44,811 nt of DNA from an uncultured Saprospiraceae bacterium (GTDB lineage Bacteria; Bacteroidota; Bacteroidia; Chitinophagales; Saprospiraceae): NCBI GenBank assembly GCA_937922815.1, contig CALAJP010000193.1, forward strand, positions 1 through 44,811, in the 5' to 3' direction. The translations under genes and the position numbers were made by a program. Shown here one piece after another: positions 2,851-36,677 of this stretch (position 1 is the stretch's first letter; every line of letters starts with the position of its first letter). Below the pieces are notes generated by a model. That model searched no databases. It was not told where the DNA came from and was given only the letters and a program-made list of their open reading frames with translations.

Positions 2851-3579
2851 ATGATTTCAATCATTATAAAAGAAATAAATACTTATTTTAGTTCACTTAT
2901 TGCCTATATGGTTATCGGTATATTTCTATTATTCATGGGATTAATGTTATGGTTCTTCCCAGACACAAGTATTATAGAAGGGCAATACGCTAATTTGGAT
3001 AGTTTATTCGAAATTTCTCCCTTAATTTTCATATTCCTAATTCCTGCCATAACAATGAGAAGTTTTGCCGAGGAAAAATCAGAAGGTACTATCGAATTTC
3101 TACAAACCAAACCAATTTCATTGTTGTCTATTGTTATAGGAAAATACCTTGGTGCTTGGATATTAATCACTCTAGCATTAGCCCCTACTCTACTTTATTA
3201 TTATTCTATTTATCAGTTGGGTTATCCCGTCGGAAATATTGATATAGGAAGTACAAATGGTGCTTATATAGGATTGGTGTTATTAAGCGGAGTATTTGCT
3301 TCTATAGGATTGCTGGCTTCTGCATTTACAACGAATCAAATTGTCGCTTTTATATTAGCAGCGTTTTTATGTTTCTTTGTTTTTTGGGGTTTTGACTACA
3401 TCAGTCAACTCCCTGTGTTCTACGGAAAATGGGACGGTTTAGTCCAAATGATAGGTATAGAATATCATTATAAATCTATCAGTAGAGGCGTAATAGATAG
3501 TAGAGATGTAATATATTTTCTATCTATTTCTAGTTTTTTTGTTTTATTAACTCATCAAGTTCTTCAAGAAAAAAAATAA
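2851..3579 (+). CDS. gldF: Gliding motility ABC transporter permease GldF
   Basis: GldF is an ABC-2 type permease of the inner membrane. With GldG and the ATPase GldA it forms a transporter required for gliding in Flavobacterium johnsoniae, though not in all gliders. The protein has 242 residues and about six hydrophobic segments. It begins ISIIIKEINTYFSSLIAYMV and carries the ABC-2 signature MRSFAEEKSEGTIEFLQTKPIS (about residues 70-91), in which the MR..EEK..GT..LL/Q core is typical. gldG follows after three bases, so the two are co-translated. gldA is not in the window, which is common because it is often unlinked. Confidence 0.93.
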   Translation: MISIIIKEINTYFSSLIAYMVIGIFLLFMGLMLWFFPDTSIIEGQYANLDSLFEISPLIFIFLIPAITMRSFAEEKSEGTIEFLQTKPISLLSIVIGKYLGAWILITLALAPTLLYYYSIYQLGYPVGNIDIGSTNGAYIGLVLLSGVFASIGLLASAFTTNQIVAFILAAFLCFFVFWGFDYISQLPVFYGKWDGLVQMIGIEYHYKSISRGVIDSRDVIYFLSISSFFVLLTHQVLQEKK

Positions 3580-3582
3580 GTT

Positions 3583-5289
3583 ATGCTTTCAAATTCTTTT
3601 TTCAAATACATGAAAGCGTATTCCAGACCAATCATTTGGTTTTTTATATTGTTATTCATTAACATCATCGCTTTCTATTTCCCTTTTAAATTTGACTTAA
3701 CAGAGGAAAATCGCTTTACGTTGAGTAAACCAACCGTACAAAAACTCAAAACTATAGATGACGTTGTTCATGTAAAAATATTGCTAGCTGGAGATTTCCC
3801 TTCTGGATTCAAAAGATTACAACAAAATACTATTGAAATTTTAGACGAGTTTAGAAGTATTAATTGGAATATAGAATATGATTTAGAAGATCCATTAATT
3901 GGAAATGTAGACCAGATAAATAATACCATAAAGTCACTTAGCGAAGTTGGGATAAACCCCGTTGACCTTAAAATAAAAAATGCAGATGGGAATAGTTCTA
4001 AATTAATTTATCCCCATGCAGTCATTACTTATCGTCAGAAATCTTACGCTATCAACTTACTTGAGAATCAAACACCTGGAGCGAATGAGCAAATTGTTTT
4101 AAACAATTCAGTTTCTCTATTAGAATACAAGTTTATTGATGCCATTAATAAAATAACACAAGATATAAAGCCTAATATTTTGTTTTTGGATAATAAAGAC
4201 GGGCTAACTCGCTTACAAACGGCTGATTTAAGAAAAACCCTGCTTTCGACCTATAATGTCGGGCATATCAACCTTGATAGTGTCATCCAAATTAAACCCG
4301 AAGTTGATGTTCTTATAATTGCTAAGCCTAGAAAATCTTTCAGTAATCGAGATAAATTTCTAATTGACCAATATGTAATGAATGGCGGGAAAACACTTTG
4401 GTTAATAGATAGAATGAATGTTACATTGGATAGTATGCGGGCAACTAATTCTTTTATTCCTTTCGATTATCCATTGAATATAGAAGACCAATTATTTAAA
4501 TACGGTGTGCGTATTCAGCCCAATTTAGTCTTGGATATGAATAGTACTCGCATTCAGTTATCCATGGGAAAAATGGGAAATGCCGCCAAGTTTGAACTAT
4601 TTCCTTGGCCTTATCACCCTTTAGTTGTTCCTGCGAATGAACATCCTATTACCAAAAGTATTGACCCTGTAGAACTCCAATTCCCCAGCCGAATAGATAC
4701 GGTGAAAACAGCCACTAATATTGAGAAAACAATTTTACTAACTTCTTCTCCGTATTCGCGAGAACAATTCTCGCCTGTTCGCCTCAATTTTGAATTTTTA
4801 AGAACTGATTTAAAGCCTGATAAGTTTAATCAAGGCCCCAAACCAGTCGCCGTTTTATTAGAAGGTAAATTCCCCTCACTCTATAACAATCGAGTTTCAA
4901 CTGATTTTAAAAATATGTTGGATAGTTTGAACCAGCAATTTATACCTATAGGAAAGCCAACTAAAATGGTTGTCGTGTCGGACGGAGATATTGCCAAAAA
5001 CTTAGTTAACCAAAAGACTCAAAAAACTTCGCCTTTAGGGTATAACAAATTTGAAAAATATATATTTGCTAATAAATCCTTTTTAATTAATTCCATAGAG
5101 TATCTTCTAGATGATAATAATTTACTATCAGCTAGATCTAAAGAGGTGAAACTTAGACTAATCGATCAAGTAAAAGCACAAGAAGAAAAGAGTTATTGGC
5201 AGGCTATAAATTTAATTATTCCTGTAATTATTGTTCTTGTTTTTGGTTTACTTTTTTCGATTATTAGGAAAAGAAAATATGCAAACTAA
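3583..5289 (+). CDS. gldG: Gliding motility-associated protein GldG
   Basis: GldG is the partner of GldF in the Gld ABC transporter. The 568-residue protein has an N-terminal membrane segment (about residues 15-35, IIWFFILLFINIIAFYFPF), then the conserved DLTEENRFTLSKPTVQKLK start of the periplasmic region, a large domain of the ABC-type uncharacterised transport family with LWLIDRMNVTLDSM in the middle, and a C-terminal membrane helix (about 540-560) followed by a basic tail RKRKYAN. Length and architecture match known GldG proteins. It lies three bases behind gldF. No terminator is obvious after it, and the next gene starts about 70 bases on. Confidence 0.93.
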   Translation: MLSNSFFKYMKAYSRPIIWFFILLFINIIAFYFPFKFDLTEENRFTLSKPTVQKLKTIDDVVHVKILLAGDFPSGFKRLQQNTIEILDEFRSINWNIEYDLEDPLIGNVDQINNTIKSLSEVGINPVDLKIKNADGNSSKLIYPHAVITYRQKSYAINLLENQTPGANEQIVLNNSVSLLEYKFIDAINKITQDIKPNILFLDNKDGLTRLQTADLRKTLLSTYNVGHINLDSVIQIKPEVDVLIIAKPRKSFSNRDKFLIDQYVMNGGKTLWLIDRMNVTLDSMRATNSFIPFDYPLNIEDQLFKYGVRIQPNLVLDMNSTRIQLSMGKMGNAAKFELFPWPYHPLVVPANEHPITKSIDPVELQFPSRIDTVKTATNIEKTILLTSSPYSREQFSPVRLNFEFLRTDLKPDKFNQGPKPVAVLLEGKFPSLYNNRVSTDFKNMLDSLNQQFIPIGKPTKMVVVSDGDIAKNLVNQKTQKTSPLGYNKFEKYIFANKSFLINSIEYLLDDNNLLSARSKEVKLRLIDQVKAQEEKSYWQAINLIIPVIIVLVFGLLFSIIRKRKYAN

Positions 5290-5359
5290 AGTAGGTTAAC
5301 CTTTTAGAGTCAAATTTCGTACATTTATAGAGTAATTGTATGGATACATAAATTCATTG

Positions 5360-7255
5360 ATGTCGTTAAAAAAACTACTTATATTATTTAGTCTATTATT
5401 CCTATGTAAAACATTCTGTTTTGCACAAGATAGTAGTGAGATAAATAAAGATAAAGTAATAGACCCTATTAGTTATCAAATAGTAGATCATAAAAACAAA
5501 TACAACAAACTAAAAAGAACTAATTTAGATGAAGCATATCTTTTTGCACAAAAAGTCCTGTTAGAGGATTTAATCCCTAATGCTAAGTTCGAAGAGTTTA
5601 ATGAGTTTTCATGGCAGTTTTTAGTAGATATGCAGCAAACGAAATATGAAAACGGGAGTTTGCTGACATTTGGTTATGGTTCTGTTAGGCTGAACAACCT
5701 TGAGTACGAAATCAATTTCAGCGATAATGAATTTACTTTATCTCCTTCATTTAACAAACTTCCTTCTAAAAAAATTGAATCTATTAACAAATACTTATTG
5801 TTATATTCGTTTAAATCGAAGCCTCAACTAGTAAAGGTACTTTTTCCTGATTTAGGTTTTAATAAAGAACAAGAGTTTTATTCAGAAGGGATATTGAGTG
5901 TTTATTGGTTAGAATACGTGTTCAATCACAACTTAAATGTTACCGACTATGACGTTATCATTAACAAGTATCAACTCTTGGAAACTAAAGACACACAATA
6001 TGAATGGGATTATCTACAATTGCTAAATAGGTATATTTTTAATAAAGAAATTGAATTTAGTAGCATTTTTAGCCTATTAGAGAGTAATGGGAACAAACTT
6101 TTAAATTGTAATTTATTAAAACTAATTAACAACAAACACCTAAATACGCCCTTAATAGACAAAAATTTTCTCAATTTATTTTTTGATAAAGTTACTAATA
6201 CGGAATTAAACATTGAAGACAAATTAGTCTATTTGCATACCATATCAGACATATATGAGTCTTTAGGAGATATTCAACAAGCTTTCTCGATTCAATCAAA
6301 CATTTTTGAATTAATTCAACAGTGGAAGAAAAGTTATCCATTACTTGAAAGGTACAAAGAAGTTTCTAAGCAATATGACGAGATGTCTCAATCTATTGAG
6401 CAATTAGAAAGTTCAAAACTAAAGGCAGAAAAACTAAAACAATCAAATCAACAATTTAAAATTACTATAATATTCATTCTACTTATTATAGGCTTATTGT
6501 CCTTTTTTTATTTTTATAAATTCCAAAAGCAAAAAAAATTAAAAAAATTAAACCTGAACCTTCAAGAACATTCTCAGTTCCTAATAGATAAAAATCTAAC
6601 CCTAGATTTATATGCATCTACCATAGTCCATGATTACGGTTCACCGATTCGAACTATAAAAAGTACATTAGATATTGTTCAGATTGAAGGAATTGAACAT
6701 GACAAAAAGGTAGAACTGATTAAAAGAAGTGAAGATGCTAATAATTTTTTAAACAAAATCACTAATGACTTTTCAAATTTTGTAGCTAGAAACGTAGATA
6801 TAAAAGAAACTAGCGTTCATAACCTTTCAACTCCTATAGAAATAGCAAAAAACCACCTTAGTTTAAAGAATGTAAATTGTACAATTAGTAGCGATTTACC
6901 TAATTTGATTTTTCACTTAGACGAAATAGTTATCGTTTTTCAAAATTTATTAAAAAACGCAGTTAAATATTGTCCTCAAGATAGAATACCGCATATTCAA
7001 ATTAATACTGAAGAAGATGCCAATAATTATAAAATTTTTATTATTGATAATGGGTATGGTCTTAAAATGGCAAACATAGAGAAAATTTTTGATCCATTTG
7101 TCAGGTTTACACCATCGAATAGCATTAAAGGTTCTGGCTTAGGGCTTTCAATCGTAAGTAAGATATTATCAAAATATGGTGCCACTATAAATGCTCACAA
7201 TAATTTAACACAGGGAGCAACTTTTGTTATTAACTGGCCTAAAAAAAGTCAATGA
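5360..7255 (+). CDS. Membrane sensor histidine kinase with helical N-terminal sensor region
   Basis: This is a predicted inner-membrane sensor kinase of about 631 residues. ATG at 5360 gives a signal peptide (SLKKLLILFSLLFLCKTFCFAQ); a TTG at 5336 is in frame but adds nothing useful. Residues 25-330 form a mostly helical extracytoplasmic region of unrecognised family, possibly TPR-like. A short coiled coil (about 330-365) leads to one membrane helix (about 366-388). The kinase core follows: an H-box around His424 in HDYGSP, N-box NLLKNAVKY with Asn533, G1 DNGYG at 563, F-box FDPF and G2 GSGLGLS at 591. All catalytic boxes are intact. The next gene is a paralogue that overlaps it by four bases (ATGA). 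No response regulator is adjacent, so the target is unknown. Confidence 0.85.
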   Translation: MSLKKLLILFSLLFLCKTFCFAQDSSEINKDKVIDPISYQIVDHKNKYNKLKRTNLDEAYLFAQKVLLEDLIPNAKFEEFNEFSWQFLVDMQQTKYENGSLLTFGYGSVRLNNLEYEINFSDNEFTLSPSFNKLPSKKIESINKYLLLYSFKSKPQLVKVLFPDLGFNKEQEFYSEGILSVYWLEYVFNHNLNVTDYDVIINKYQLLETKDTQYEWDYLQLLNRYIFNKEIEFSSIFSLLESNGNKLLNCNLLKLINNKHLNTPLIDKNFLNLFFDKVTNTELNIEDKLVYLHTISDIYESLGDIQQAFSIQSNIFELIQQWKKSYPLLERYKEVSKQYDEMSQSIEQLESSKLKAEKLKQSNQQFKITIIFILLIIGLLSFFYFYKFQKQKKLKKLNLNLQEHSQFLIDKNLTLDLYASTIVHDYGSPIRTIKSTLDIVQIEGIEHDKKVELIKRSEDANNFLNKITNDFSNFVARNVDIKETSVHNLSTPIEIAKNHLSLKNVNCTISSDLPNLIFHLDEIVIVFQNLLKNAVKYCPQDRIPHIQINTEEDANNYKIFIIDNGYGLKMANIEKIFDPFVRFTPSNSIKGSGLGLSIVSKILSKYGATINAHNNLTQGATFVINWPKKSQ

Positions 7256-9276
7256 TTGCTAAAATATTATATATTATTACTTTAATTTCTTTTGTAAGTA
7301 CTATTGTCAATGCCAATGGTTTTGATAAAGAAACGTACATTAGAGAGTACTTATATTATTTCCCTGGAGAAAGCTCAGTAAAAAAAGAAGCATTACCTCA
7401 AGAATATAGAGAAAAGTATAAAAATGAAATATTAGAACAAAATTTAAAAGCCTATCAAGAACATATTTCAGATAAAAAATTAGATACCGCATTCTTGTTA
7501 GCTCAAAGAATAATACTAGAGTTAATCCCTCTGAGTAAAGATATTGAAAAACTAGAGTCATTTGCATATGATGCCCATCAAGATTTTAGTGGTCACCCTC
7601 TTGAACCAGGGGTTCTTTTATTTGTATCTAATGCTTATTCACAATTTGATATTTACGAAAAAGATTTTTTTTACACAAAATTAGCCTATCAAAAGGCAGT
7701 AGACAATAATGATTTTTCATATAGACTCCTTTCCGCAAGCTACTTAATGTACACCTATGAAGATCATGATGAAAACGAAGCCATTCAGGATATTCTAAAC
7801 CAAGAGTACCCATATTTATTGCTTCCCGCCAAAACTAAACATGAGAAGCGCAGCCAATGGGTCATTTATAGATTTAAAGCATTACAAGATTTAGGAACTC
7901 CTCGATTAAAGAAAACATTAAATAGGTTTGTTTTTAAAGATGAAACTATTAATGCTCCACTAATAAATAATGAAGTTAAGCTTTTGAAAAAGCTTAATAA
8001 AATTTACTTACAAGATGAGAACTCCATCATAAATACAATTAAAGGGATAAGTGATGTAGATAATTCTATTCTTGGAATTAGTACTCGAAATTATCTCCAA
8101 AAGGCTTATTATGTAGAATTAGTTAAAGCACCAATAGATAGGCTATCTGAGAATGAACTAAATCTATTAATAAAACTGTTGGGTGTTTTATCTAGTAGGG
8201 TGGATATATCTTCTCAGAATGAAATGATCGGGCATACTTTACCCTTGTTAAAAAAATATGGAAGCAAAAATTTATATTTAAAGTATCTCAAACTATATAA
8301 CACTGGAATAGAAAGTGTTTTCCAAAGAAAAAAGTTTCAAAAATTAGAGAATACCCAAAATAGAATATCAGCTATTCTTAAAAACGAAAACGAAAGAAAA
8401 AAAGTAGACTTAAAAAACACCCAACTAGAAGAGAGAAAACTCTTTTTAATTGCATCTTTGTTTTTTTCAATATTACTTATTTTAATATTATTTTACTTCT
8501 ACAGATACCATTCTAAAATCCAACATCATCTAAATAAACTTAACCTAAATCTCAAAAATAAAATTAATGACATCAATAATAAAAATCTATCTTTAGAGGC
8601 TTTTTCACAAAAGCTCTGTTCGATTGAGACCCCTAGTTATCAATCTATCCATAAAATTCTAAATTCACTCAAAGACAAGTCTATAAAAATTGATGATATT
8701 CAAGATGAACTTAGCCAATCTAAACAAAAAATTCAAAAATTAGAGTCTCTCACTCAAGGCTTCCTAAGGTATTCTCAATCTGCCAATAGTCAATTGGTTC
8801 GAAAATTTCAACCTTTTTCTGCCGCTATTAGGTTAGCAACTTTTAATTTAAAAAATAACAAAATAAATATAAATGTTGTCAATGAGGTGCCTAGAATGCA
8901 TTATAATATAGATGATTTCTCTTTGCTAATAGAAAATATTCTTATGAATTCTCAACAGTTTTGTCCACTCAAAGAAAAGCCTTCTATTGAAATTGACTAT
9001 AAGATAGAAGATAACCAATTAATCATTCTTTTCAAAGACAATAGTGTAGGAGTCAAAAATGGAGACATAAATAAATTAGGAACTCCTTTTTATTCTTTTG
9101 ATCAAGGAGAATGTAAAAAAGGTATTGGTCTTGGCGTTTCTACAATCAAAAATATTTTAGATAAGTACAATGCTGAATACCAACTCAAAAACAACCTCAA
9201 TGCACATGGCACAACTTGCTTCATCAAATTTCCAGAGAATATTCTTGAAAATCCACAAGAAAAAATTGCTATATAA
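7252..9276 (+). CDS. Paralogous sensor kinase-like protein lacking the H-box histidine
   Basis: This 674-residue protein has the same layout as its upstream partner: signal peptide, long helical extracytoplasmic region (DTAFLLAQRIILELIPLS here matches DEAYLFAQKVLLEDLIPN upstream), one membrane helix (about 397-421), coiled coil and HATPase domain. The segment aligning with the partner's H-box reads LCSIETPSYQSIHKIL, putting Ser457 where the phospho-accepting His should be. The ATPase domain keeps the N-box Asn566 (ENILMNS) and G2 box GIGLGV at 624-629, but the G1 box is DNSVG (596-600) instead of DxGxG. It may therefore bind ATP without autophosphorylating. The ATGA overlap with the upstream gene implies coupled translation and perhaps a heteromer. 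It is tail-to-tail with the next gene, overlapping by eight bases. Confidence 0.78.
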   Translation: MIAKILYIITLISFVSTIVNANGFDKETYIREYLYYFPGESSVKKEALPQEYREKYKNEILEQNLKAYQEHISDKKLDTAFLLAQRIILELIPLSKDIEKLESFAYDAHQDFSGHPLEPGVLLFVSNAYSQFDIYEKDFFYTKLAYQKAVDNNDFSYRLLSASYLMYTYEDHDENEAIQDILNQEYPYLLLPAKTKHEKRSQWVIYRFKALQDLGTPRLKKTLNRFVFKDETINAPLINNEVKLLKKLNKIYLQDENSIINTIKGISDVDNSILGISTRNYLQKAYYVELVKAPIDRLSENELNLLIKLLGVLSSRVDISSQNEMIGHTLPLLKKYGSKNLYLKYLKLYNTGIESVFQRKKFQKLENTQNRISAILKNENERKKVDLKNTQLEERKLFLIASLFFSILLILILFYFYRYHSKIQHHLNKLNLNLKNKINDINNKNLSLEAFSQKLCSIETPSYQSIHKILNSLKDKSIKIDDIQDELSQSKQKIQKLESLTQGFLRYSQSANSQLVRKFQPFSAAIRLATFNLKNNKININVVNEVPRMHYNIDDFSLLIENILMNSQQFCPLKEKPSIEIDYKIEDNQLIILFKDNSVGVKNGDINKLGTPFYSFDQGECKKGIGLGVSTIKNILDKYNAEYQLKNNLNAHGTTCFIKFPENILENPQEKIAI

Positions 9277-34433: not shown

Positions 34434-36677
34434 TTAAATAGCAAATTTTACCAACACTTCTTTTAGCTGGCTTGGTTTATAAGGTTTGGTTATAAAATCG
34501 ACCATCCCTGTGCTATAACTATCTTGCTGAATTTCTTTCAATACTGAAGCAGTCAAGGCTACAATAGGCGTTCCTTTATTTAAATTTTCTGTACTTTTAA
34601 TAATATTAGCCGCTTCGATACCCGAAATACCAGGCATTTGGACATCCATAAAAATTAAATCGTACTTTTTCTTTTTGGCTTGTTCTACCCCTTCACTACC
34701 ATCAGAAGCAATATCAAACTTCACTTTCATTTTACGCAATACAGACGAGATATACTTTTGATTCATAATATTATCTTCAACCACAAGGACAGATAAACCT
34801 TCTAGTGATACGTTATCTAACAACTTGGAATCAGACAACGGCTTTTCTTTGGTTTTTTCAACTATTTCAGGGGCTCTTTGAGATTGCATTAGAGGAATTG
34901 AGAATGTAAATACAGAACCTTCTCCAAACTTGGACTCTACACTTATAAATCCTTCTAACATCTCAATGAGTTGCTTGATAATCGGCAAACCTAAGCCAGT
35001 ACCTGTAACTCCTGCTATATTGTGTTTGACCTGTTCGTAGGGTAAGAATACCGAGTTAATATCAGAAGGTTTGATGCCAATGCCAGTATCTTTAACGGTA
35101 ATAATAAAGGCCTTTTTTTCATTAAACACATCTTGAGTAATATTGATATCGATAGAACCTTTTTCAGTAAATTTGACCGAATTGGATACTAAATTCATAA
35201 GTATTTGATTGAATACCGTCAAGTTTCCGCTTACAGTAATTCCCTCAAATTTCTTATCATAATTAACCGTGAGGTCTACATTCTTTACTTTACACTGCCC
35301 TTGAAAGCCCAAAGTAGCCTCTTTTACAACATTCACTAGATTGAAAGTAGAAGTTTCAGATTCAAAATTTCCGCTACTAATTTTAGCAAAATCTAAAATA
35401 TCCGTTAACAGCCCTAATAAAATATTAGAAGAGTTTTCTAAAAGGTCAAAATACTCCACTTGGTTAGGCTGTTTATTTTGTTCTTTCAGTAAAGTAGTCA
35501 TGCCAATAATAGCATTTAAAGGAGTTCTTATTTCATGGCTCATCGTAGCGAGAAAAGATCTTTCAGACTGTTGAGCCTTGATCGCTTTACGGTTAGCCTC
35601 TAATAGGTTTTCCTCCATTTCCTTTCTTTCTGATAAATCTAATATAAGGTAAATGAATTTTTTTACGCCAACATTCCCATTAGTATAAGAAACACCTGAA
35701 ATCATTCCCCAACAATCCGATTTTTCGTTTTCAACAAGTTTAGTTTCTAGCTTTCCTTTACCATATTTTACGATATTGCTTTTTAATTCAATAAAAGCAC
35801 TTTCGTCTTCAAAATATTGATTGAATGGAATTCCTGTTTTTACTTCGGAGAAAAAAGAATTATGGTGGTTTTTAACTTGTAAAATTTTATTTTGAATATT
35901 TGTTTCTATAATTACGACATCTAGATATTGTATGATGGTCTGATATAAGTTTTCTGCTTCTAATAGTTGCTTTGCCCTATAGTCAATTTTATGTTCAAGG
36001 TTTCTATTCGCCTCTTCCAATGCGTGATATGAATCTAGTATTTCATCGGACTGTTTTCTCAGTTTTATTTTTTGCTCCTCTACTGTAATGAGAGTGTTTT
36101 CTAAAACTTCAAAACTTTTTTCCTTTGAAAAATAAAATAGACAACCGATTCCAAAAAGGAAAATAAAAAAGCATACTTGGCTAATCAAATAAACTTCAGG
36201 GTCTAACAGAATTCTATTAATGTGGAACTCAAGATTTAAATTAGTGACATAAAAAAGTACAATTGAAGATATTATAGCAACGAAAAACCACGCAAATCCT
36301 GAACGAAATCCACTAAAGAAAAGAGCAATAAAAGGAGGGGCCAATATCCACCAAACTCCATCCGCAAATATAGCTCCAACCTGAGGTACAAAAACGATTG
36401 TCGCCATATAGATATTAAGTGCCTGTAAGTTTCCACATATATAAAAGCTACCTGTTTTAGTAAAAATAAAACCTATGATAAGAGCTAAAATAGCAGCTGT
36501 AAAAATATGCATAGGATCTTCTACTGCAAAAAAGTGCGTATAAGAACCAGCTATAAGTCCTAGAGTAAAAACTAAGAAATTTAGCCCTACAAAATATATA
36601 GCTTTCTGGTGAGAAACTGTATTTTGTTTATGCCTTTCGGGGATAGAAAATAATATGGAATTCGTTATCCAGTTCAT
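34434..36677 (-). CDS. Hybrid sensor histidine kinase with receiver domain
   Basis: This is a membrane-bound hybrid two-component kinase of 747 residues. The N-terminus has about six membrane helices (about 25-190) forming an integral membrane sensor. A coiled coil (about 195-245), a PAS-like segment (about 245-365), HisKA with MSHEIRTPLN (His381) and HATPase follow. The HATPase has N-box NLVSNSVKF, G1 DTGIGI and G2 GTGLGLP. A C-terminal receiver has VVEDNIMNQ, phospho-acceptor Asp678 in FMDVQMPG, Thr in ALTAS and Lys in ITKPYKP. All catalytic residues are intact. There is no DNA-binding output, so a phosphotransfer protein elsewhere must carry the signal. It shows no close relation to the kinase pair at 5360-9276. 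Confidence 0.93.
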   Translation of the reverse strand: MNWITNSILFSIPERHKQNTVSHQKAIYFVGLNFLVFTLGLIAGSYTHFFAVEDPMHIFTAAILALIIGFIFTKTGSFYICGNLQALNIYMATIVFVPQVGAIFADGVWWILAPPFIALFFSGFRSGFAWFFVAIISSIVLFYVTNLNLEFHINRILLDPEVYLISQVCFFIFLFGIGCLFYFSKEKSFEVLENTLITVEEQKIKLRKQSDEILDSYHALEEANRNLEHKIDYRAKQLLEAENLYQTIIQYLDVVIIETNIQNKILQVKNHHNSFFSEVKTGIPFNQYFEDESAFIELKSNIVKYGKGKLETKLVENEKSDCWGMISGVSYTNGNVGVKKFIYLILDLSERKEMEENLLEANRKAIKAQQSERSFLATMSHEIRTPLNAIIGMTTLLKEQNKQPNQVEYFDLLENSSNILLGLLTDILDFAKISSGNFESETSTFNLVNVVKEATLGFQGQCKVKNVDLTVNYDKKFEGITVSGNLTVFNQILMNLVSNSVKFTEKGSIDINITQDVFNEKKAFIITVKDTGIGIKPSDINSVFLPYEQVKHNIAGVTGTGLGLPIIKQLIEMLEGFISVESKFGEGSVFTFSIPLMQSQRAPEIVEKTKEKPLSDSKLLDNVSLEGLSVLVVEDNIMNQKYISSVLRKMKVKFDIASDGSEGVEQAKKKKYDLIFMDVQMPGISGIEAANIIKSTENLNKGTPIVALTASVLKEIQQDSYSTGMVDFITKPYKPSQLKEVLVKFAI

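Follow-up and report, generated by a model that had tools for sequence, protein, structure and literature searches.

A sensor kinase gene overlapping that of a histidine-less paralogue in an uncultured Saprospiraceae bacterium, and repeated loss of the predicted phospho-acceptor in their paralogous family

The sensor kinases of bacteria are commonly regarded as homodimers, each paired with a single cognate regulator. In group A Streptococcus, according to PMC12675982, FasB and FasC (with FasA) are two sensor-kinase-like proteins encoded at one locus that were found to heterodimerise by two-hybrid analysis, and FasC is a proposed pseudokinase. In the Pseudomonas multikinase network, one sensor kinase, RetS, is described as adjusting another, GacS, by formation of a heterodimer (PMC12189002, PMC5992135), and the pseudokinase ChrS is reported to heterodimerise with HrrS (PMC9491836). 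The Caulobacter pseudo-histidine kinase DivL has Tyr550 in place of the acceptor histidine within a kinase layout, keeps the other characteristic boxes, binds DivK-P, regulates another kinase's pathway and occurs across the alphaproteobacteria, as set out in PMC4211667. The present analysis concerns winA and winB, two overlapping genes on a 44,811-nucleotide stretch (the window) of an uncultured Saprospiraceae bacterium (contig CALAJP010000193.1, assembly GCA_937922815.1), of which the first encodes an apparently complete sensor kinase and the second a paralogue without the acceptor histidine. Both open reading frames lie where the initial annotation had placed them, with the following features:

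5360-7255, forward strand: winA, active-looking sensor histidine kinase of 631 amino acids with a signal-peptide-like start, helical ectodomain, one transmembrane helix, DHp domain with His424 and HATPase domain
5414-6421, forward strand: winA ectodomain, residues 19-354
6464-6532, forward strand: winA membrane helix, about residues 369-391, assigned by eye
6629-6631, forward strand: codon of winA His424, the predicted phospho-acceptor
7046-7060, forward strand: winA G1 box DNGYG (residues 563-567)
7252-7255, forward strand: ATGA overlap of the winA stop and winB start, read directly
7252-9276, forward strand: winB, His-less paralogue of 674 amino acids, laid out as winA
7309-8412, forward strand: winB ectodomain, residues 20-387
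8437-8508, forward strand: winB membrane helix, about residues 396-419, assigned by eye
8620-8622, forward strand: codon of winB Ser457, aligned with the acceptor histidine
9037-9051, forward strand: winB G1 box DNSVG (residues 596-600)
9121-9135, forward strand: winB G2 box GIGLG (residues 624-628), retained

The length of winA was counted from the ATG at 5360; an in-frame TTG at 5336 is likewise open. Signal-peptide-like starts were judged by eye in both proteins, and the helical region of each was read from the secondary structure of poor models (mean pLDDT 44 and 43). In the family alignment winA has histidine followed by aspartate in the DHp helix (H424-D425), the arrangement expected of the acceptor in a HisKA-type kinase, and its N (N529/N533), G1 (D563-N-G565-x-G567), F (F577/F580) and G2 (G591-x-G593-L-G595) boxes are all intact. 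The Pfam HisKA model did not match winA at an E-value of 0.1; HATPase_c matched winA at 70.8 bits and winB at 39.1 bits, both above the cut-off of 26.4. Judged from its sequence, winA is probably a complete HisKA-type sensor kinase, an active-looking orphan.

In winB the acceptor pair is replaced by S457-I458. The G1 box (D596-N-S598-V-G600) has lost its first glycine and kept the aspartate and second glycine, the first phenylalanine of the F box is Gly610, and N562/N566 of the N box and the G2 glycines (G624-x-G626-L-G628) are kept. Pairwise, family-wide and hidden Markov model (HMM) alignments agreed on loss of the acceptor, the HMM profile of 13 His-bearing relatives placing it at S457 (131 bits); the nearest histidine, H467, lies ten residues further on. 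The initial annotation had named the same intact residues in the first protein and the same losses and retentions in the second, and the alignments put no other histidine of winB at the acceptor position, a result that it had named as refuting. The two proteins share the layout that it described, with one correction as to the ectodomains. BLASTP aligns the pair across the transmembrane, DHp and HATPase regions (E 5e-19; 261 columns, 27% identity). The ectodomains show marginal similarity at most, with 15% identity when aligned within the family and a single BLAST match of 48 residues (E 4e-4).

The pair is like FasB/FasC in having two sensor-kinase-like proteins at one locus, one of them a proposed pseudokinase; it differs in that the Fas pseudokinase carries a histidine thought to be phosphorylated and the regulator lies in the locus, whereas winB has no acceptor histidine and no regulator is linked (PMC12675982). 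The two systems are likened by description, and by that analogy FasB/FasC would be the nearest working model for winA/winB, with RetS/GacS as another. RetS is presumably encoded apart from GacS. It is a hybrid kinase, unlike winB (PMC12189002), and the comparison implies no loss of histidine in RetS. In ChrS/HrrS, as in the proposed pair, a kinase-dead paralogue joins an intact one in a heterodimer, but the ChrS pseudokinase arose in laboratory evolution by a frameshift in the CA domain (PMC9491836). winB is like DivL in the replaced histidine and unlike it in its altered G1 box, F box and DHp face and in having no orthologue in the genomes searched.

The initial annotation had called the two genes tandem paralogues; they are paralogous and adjacent, but they belong to a larger family in the same genome (3.88 Mb in 308 contigs, 97% complete, 3% contamination), where winB had 21 and winA 24 matches at E <=0.1. 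Eighteen proteins of like layout were aligned: 15 core members, one of which (C119b) is cut near its C-terminus by a contig end, and C216, C122a and C122b. A profile of the 15 core ectodomains matched exactly those 15 in the genome at E <=1, a result whose significance is the absence of others, since the 15 built the profile; C216, C122a and C122b share the layout without matching it. The ectodomain of winA scores lowest against this profile. The ectodomain belongs to no family known to Pfam, as at most two of 15 members matched any one model (TPR_12, best E 0.11); Foie-gras_1 matched a single ectodomain at 5e-4.

Among 398 genomes of the taxonomic family, with up to five candidates scored per genome, the profile had no full-length match outside this genome; partial matches occurred in 107 others (best E 5e-8 over positions 44-155 of 368, widest 34-257). 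A profile of six close members found this genome only among 396 genomes of the order (E 1e-6). With whole winB as the query, 19 of 99 relatives matched at E 1e-10, every match starting at residue 312 or later. Two further scans of genome contigs found no relative, very near genomes possibly lying outside the scans, which covered no congeneric genome. As far as the searched genomes show, the 15-member family appears private to this lineage.

Thirteen of the 18 aligned proteins have histidine in the acceptor column; the others have Ser (winB), Asn (C150a and C122b), Lys (C3) and Phe (C295), so that four of 15 core members are His-less (Ser, Asn, Lys, Phe) and 11 His-bearing. Among the His-less proteins, C3 and C122b have largely intact ATP boxes, winB has lost part of them, and C150a and C295 retain almost none. 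Another kinase of the genome, C181 (L181:922-3102), has Gln at the acceptor, keeps the N, G1 and G2 boxes and lacks one F-box phenylalanine; the core ectodomain profile does not match it. HATPase_c had 39 matches in the genome, seven of them outside the 18 aligned proteins and the 14 other kinases counted first: the C181 kinase; C117, excluded from the count of HisKA-type kinases for its different DHp class (Pfam His_kinase); and five non-kinases, identified by eye as GyrB-like (C158), GyrB/ParE-like (C32), MutL-like (C182), HtpG-like (C71) and a short anti-sigma-like ATPase (on C181). Six of the 33 HisKA-type kinases are thus His-less, four of 15 in the core and two of 18 among the others (C122b, C181). 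In relatives the histidine was present in all 27 kinases examined, from 29 winB matches outside the genome; the difference between 6/33 and 0/27 has p 0.022, a rough value since the rows are related. An excess of loss restricted to the family was rejected: the first count was 5/18 against 0/14, and with C181 included the core stood at 4/15 against 2/18 for the rest, a non-significant difference (p 0.24, equally rough).

A single ancestral loss for the four core cases was likewise rejected, one clade having a p-AU of 1.3e-5. C3 and C295 group as sisters at 100/100 support. Over the 18 proteins, four acceptor changes are required by the best tree, and two are forced by its starred branches. By these alignments and trees the predicted acceptor histidine has been lost at least twice separately within the family. 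Loss of the chemistry with retention of the receptor shape has happened more than once in this genome. The kinase-pseudokinase arrangement is of a known kind; repeated disarming inside one private family is the new part, and no description of repeated histidine loss in one paralogous bacterial family was found in the titles and abstract beginnings of the open-licence PMC papers listed.

Other loci of the genome also carry such kinases side by side. On contig C150 (L046:5399-11917) three core paralogues stand in a row, the first of which, the His-less C150a lacking nearly all ATP-box residues, ends 45 bases before an intact kinase. On contig C122 (L055:4632-9210) a kinase is followed 295 bases on by one with Asn for His and most ATP-box residues kept; this locus is a second kinase-pseudokinase neighbourhood. 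The least diverged family members are intact core kinases that stand in tandem, one pair on contig C119 (L047:1-4553) and one on C280 (L048:4674-9390); as each pair touches a contig end, the assembly may have truncated or collapsed further copies. Plain tandem duplication as the origin of winA-winB was not supported: the two join in the tree only at 55/11, and the winB ectodomain, closer to the family than that of winA, is nearest to that of C150b.

All five aligned His-less proteins are full-length open reading frames. At core positions, defined as hydrophobic in at least 12 of the 13 His-bearing kin, they keep the hydrophobic residue in 34 of 40 cells of helix alpha1 (surface positions, 19 of 100), 30 of 40 of alpha2 (surface, 15 of 101) and 119 of 132 of the CA domain (surface, 49 of 323). 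Another 12-of-13 criterion, conservation of the residue itself among the His-bearing members, picks out 45 positions, of which the five keep 16 to 26 (winB 24). The ratio of kinase to ectodomain branch length, on a fixed tree, was 0.56-2.34 in His-less and 0.11-0.94 in His-bearing members (one-sided U-test, p 2.3e-4), and therefore the ectodomain would seem to have been kept while catalysis was let go. On this evidence the five look like retained pseudokinases rather than debris. winB in particular looks like a retained pseudokinase: the acceptor and much of the surrounding surface are gone, but the receptor layout persists, as does the greater part of the DHp and CA cores.

At roughly even confidence, we favour winB as a regulatory subunit that would dimerise with winA and feed another signal into the winA kinase, in the manner of FasB/FasC or RetS/GacS. 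The heteromeric receptor proposed in the initial annotation, with the phospho-acceptor on one protomer, thus finds partial support: an intact kinase and a His-less paralogue are encoded by overlapping genes with no linked regulator, and the paralogue largely retains its dimer and CA cores, while the heteromer itself is a prediction. Overlapping translation would yield the two proteins in matched amounts at the membrane, where winB would dimerise with winA through the DHp and transmembrane bundle by means of its retained bundle core. Input at the winB ectodomain would then raise or lower the autokinase or phosphatase activity of winA, which alone would exchange phosphate with an unlinked response regulator. 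Between the transmembrane helix and the DHp domain, winA and winB are more alike than most other pairs: they agree in 46% of 24 columns, and each ranks second of 17 for the other. Branch lengths are 3.34 (DHp), 2.78 (ectodomain) and 0.72 (CA, conserved) for winA, and 4.00, 1.93 and 1.74, respectively, for winB; the strongly diverged DHp of both would fit a private interface and would equally result if one had been freed from constraint and the other had drifted.

Several observations weigh against this proposal. In the DHp helices each protein ranks only 13-15 of 17 as a partner for the other, below most paralogues. The sister grouping of winA and winB is weak, with long branches on both sides, and no orthologous winA-winB pair occurs in the genomes searched. 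Neither C3 nor C295 shares its contig with a paralogue, which speaks against exclusive pairing. As to the branch ratios, that of C122b (0.56) falls within the His-bearing range, the ratios of C3 and C295 come from a sister pair, and long terminal branches are frequent.

A tentative alternative is a network modulator: winB would influence several of the genome's orphan kinases in trans or, like DivL, bind a response regulator, and the gene overlap would then be a matter of common timing and not of an exclusive pair. In its favour, DivL offers a precedent, and the solitary C3 and C295 indicate that retention does not require an adjacent partner, so that winB may act in trans across the family. 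The genome has 29 receiver matches. As the initial annotation had noted, no response regulator is linked to the pair: the winA contig has one receiver match, within a hybrid kinase (34434-36677), and there is none on the contigs of the ten other His-bearing core members or of any other core kinase. Among the peripheral kinases, C216 comes nearest to a receiver, a single one some 4 kb away. Contigs without a HATPase_c match carry several regulators, among them PorX, the response regulator of the type IX secretion system, on C223 (L169:1497-3047; 801 bits against a cut-off of 300), and, by best model and all below cut-offs, two nearest PhoB, one nearest RprY and two nearest MctR. Against this alternative, overlapping genes favour amounts matched with those of winA. 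Moreover, the Arg seven residues past the acceptor, which we take to be a receiver-contact position, is present in 12 of 13 His-bearing kin and lost in winB, C150a, C3 and C295 (C122b keeps it), and because of this loss in all four core His-less proteins a DivL-like regulator binder seems less likely than a regulatory subunit. The surface near the acceptor typically serves receiver recognition, according to PMC4211667.

It is improbable that winB is an ATP-dependent helper, half an enzyme whose CA domain would still bind ATP and phosphorylate winA His424 in trans. The HATPase_c score above cut-off and the retained N-box Asn, G1 Asp, second G1 glycine and G2 glycines would allow it, and C3, C122b and C181 likewise keep most ATP-box residues without the histidine; however, winB lacks the first G1 glycine and one F-box phenylalanine, and the loss of nearly all ATP-box residues from C150a and C295 argues that the family does not need them. 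Still less credible is winB as a decaying duplicate without present function. Its kinase motifs are eroded and diverge faster, and no orthologue shows conservation, but 674 codons have stayed open after deep divergence, the hydrophobic cores are largely retained, winA has the longer ectodomain branch (2.78; winB 1.93), and further full-length His-less members exist. Phosphorylation of winB on another residue, such as Ser457 or His467, is hardly to be expected: His467 does lie in the same predicted helix, but Ile458 stands in place of the Asp that follows the acceptor, Ser462 replaces the Pro at His+5 (with a Pro at +4), and the four core cases each have a different residue at the acceptor position (Ser, Asn, Lys, Phe), so that no single residue has been selected.

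The pair follows two gld genes on the same strand:

2851-5289, forward strand: gldF and gldG, directly upstream of winA (curated models)

From the end of gldG to the start of winA there is a gap of 70 bases, and two OmpH-like genes stand in tandem at 1321-2520, upstream of gldF. The 3' end of winB overlaps a convergent SpoU methylase gene on the opposite strand by 8 bases (9269-9276). A search of 60 genomes provided 30 gldG loci for comparison, including this one; in none of the 29 others does a winA or winB match lie within the roughly 1.5 kb examined on each side, and the pair therefore looks like an addition at the gldG locus of this genome. A shared operon of gldFG with winA-winB is possible. 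The two terminator-like sites found lie at 7598-7615 inside winB and none lies in the gldG-winA gap; promoter-like sites (29 against 23.9 expected) and a Bacteroidota motif (76 against 70.2 expected) were uninformative on an operon.

More broadly, and as a speculation that we consider rather unlikely, the family may form a private receptor network in which orphan kinases and pseudokinases with a common ectodomain family mix as heterodimers. The ectodomains would diversify sensing, the His-less subunits would provide allosteric input, and the output would converge on a small number of unlinked regulators (perhaps PorX, given the adjacent gldFG), much as with eukaryotic receptor pseudokinases. 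The genome offers a natural series in which the histidine is lost with the ATP site mostly intact, partly lost or nearly wholly lost. This series lets one ask what role a kinase-dead sensor plays and whether duplicates become obligate partners.

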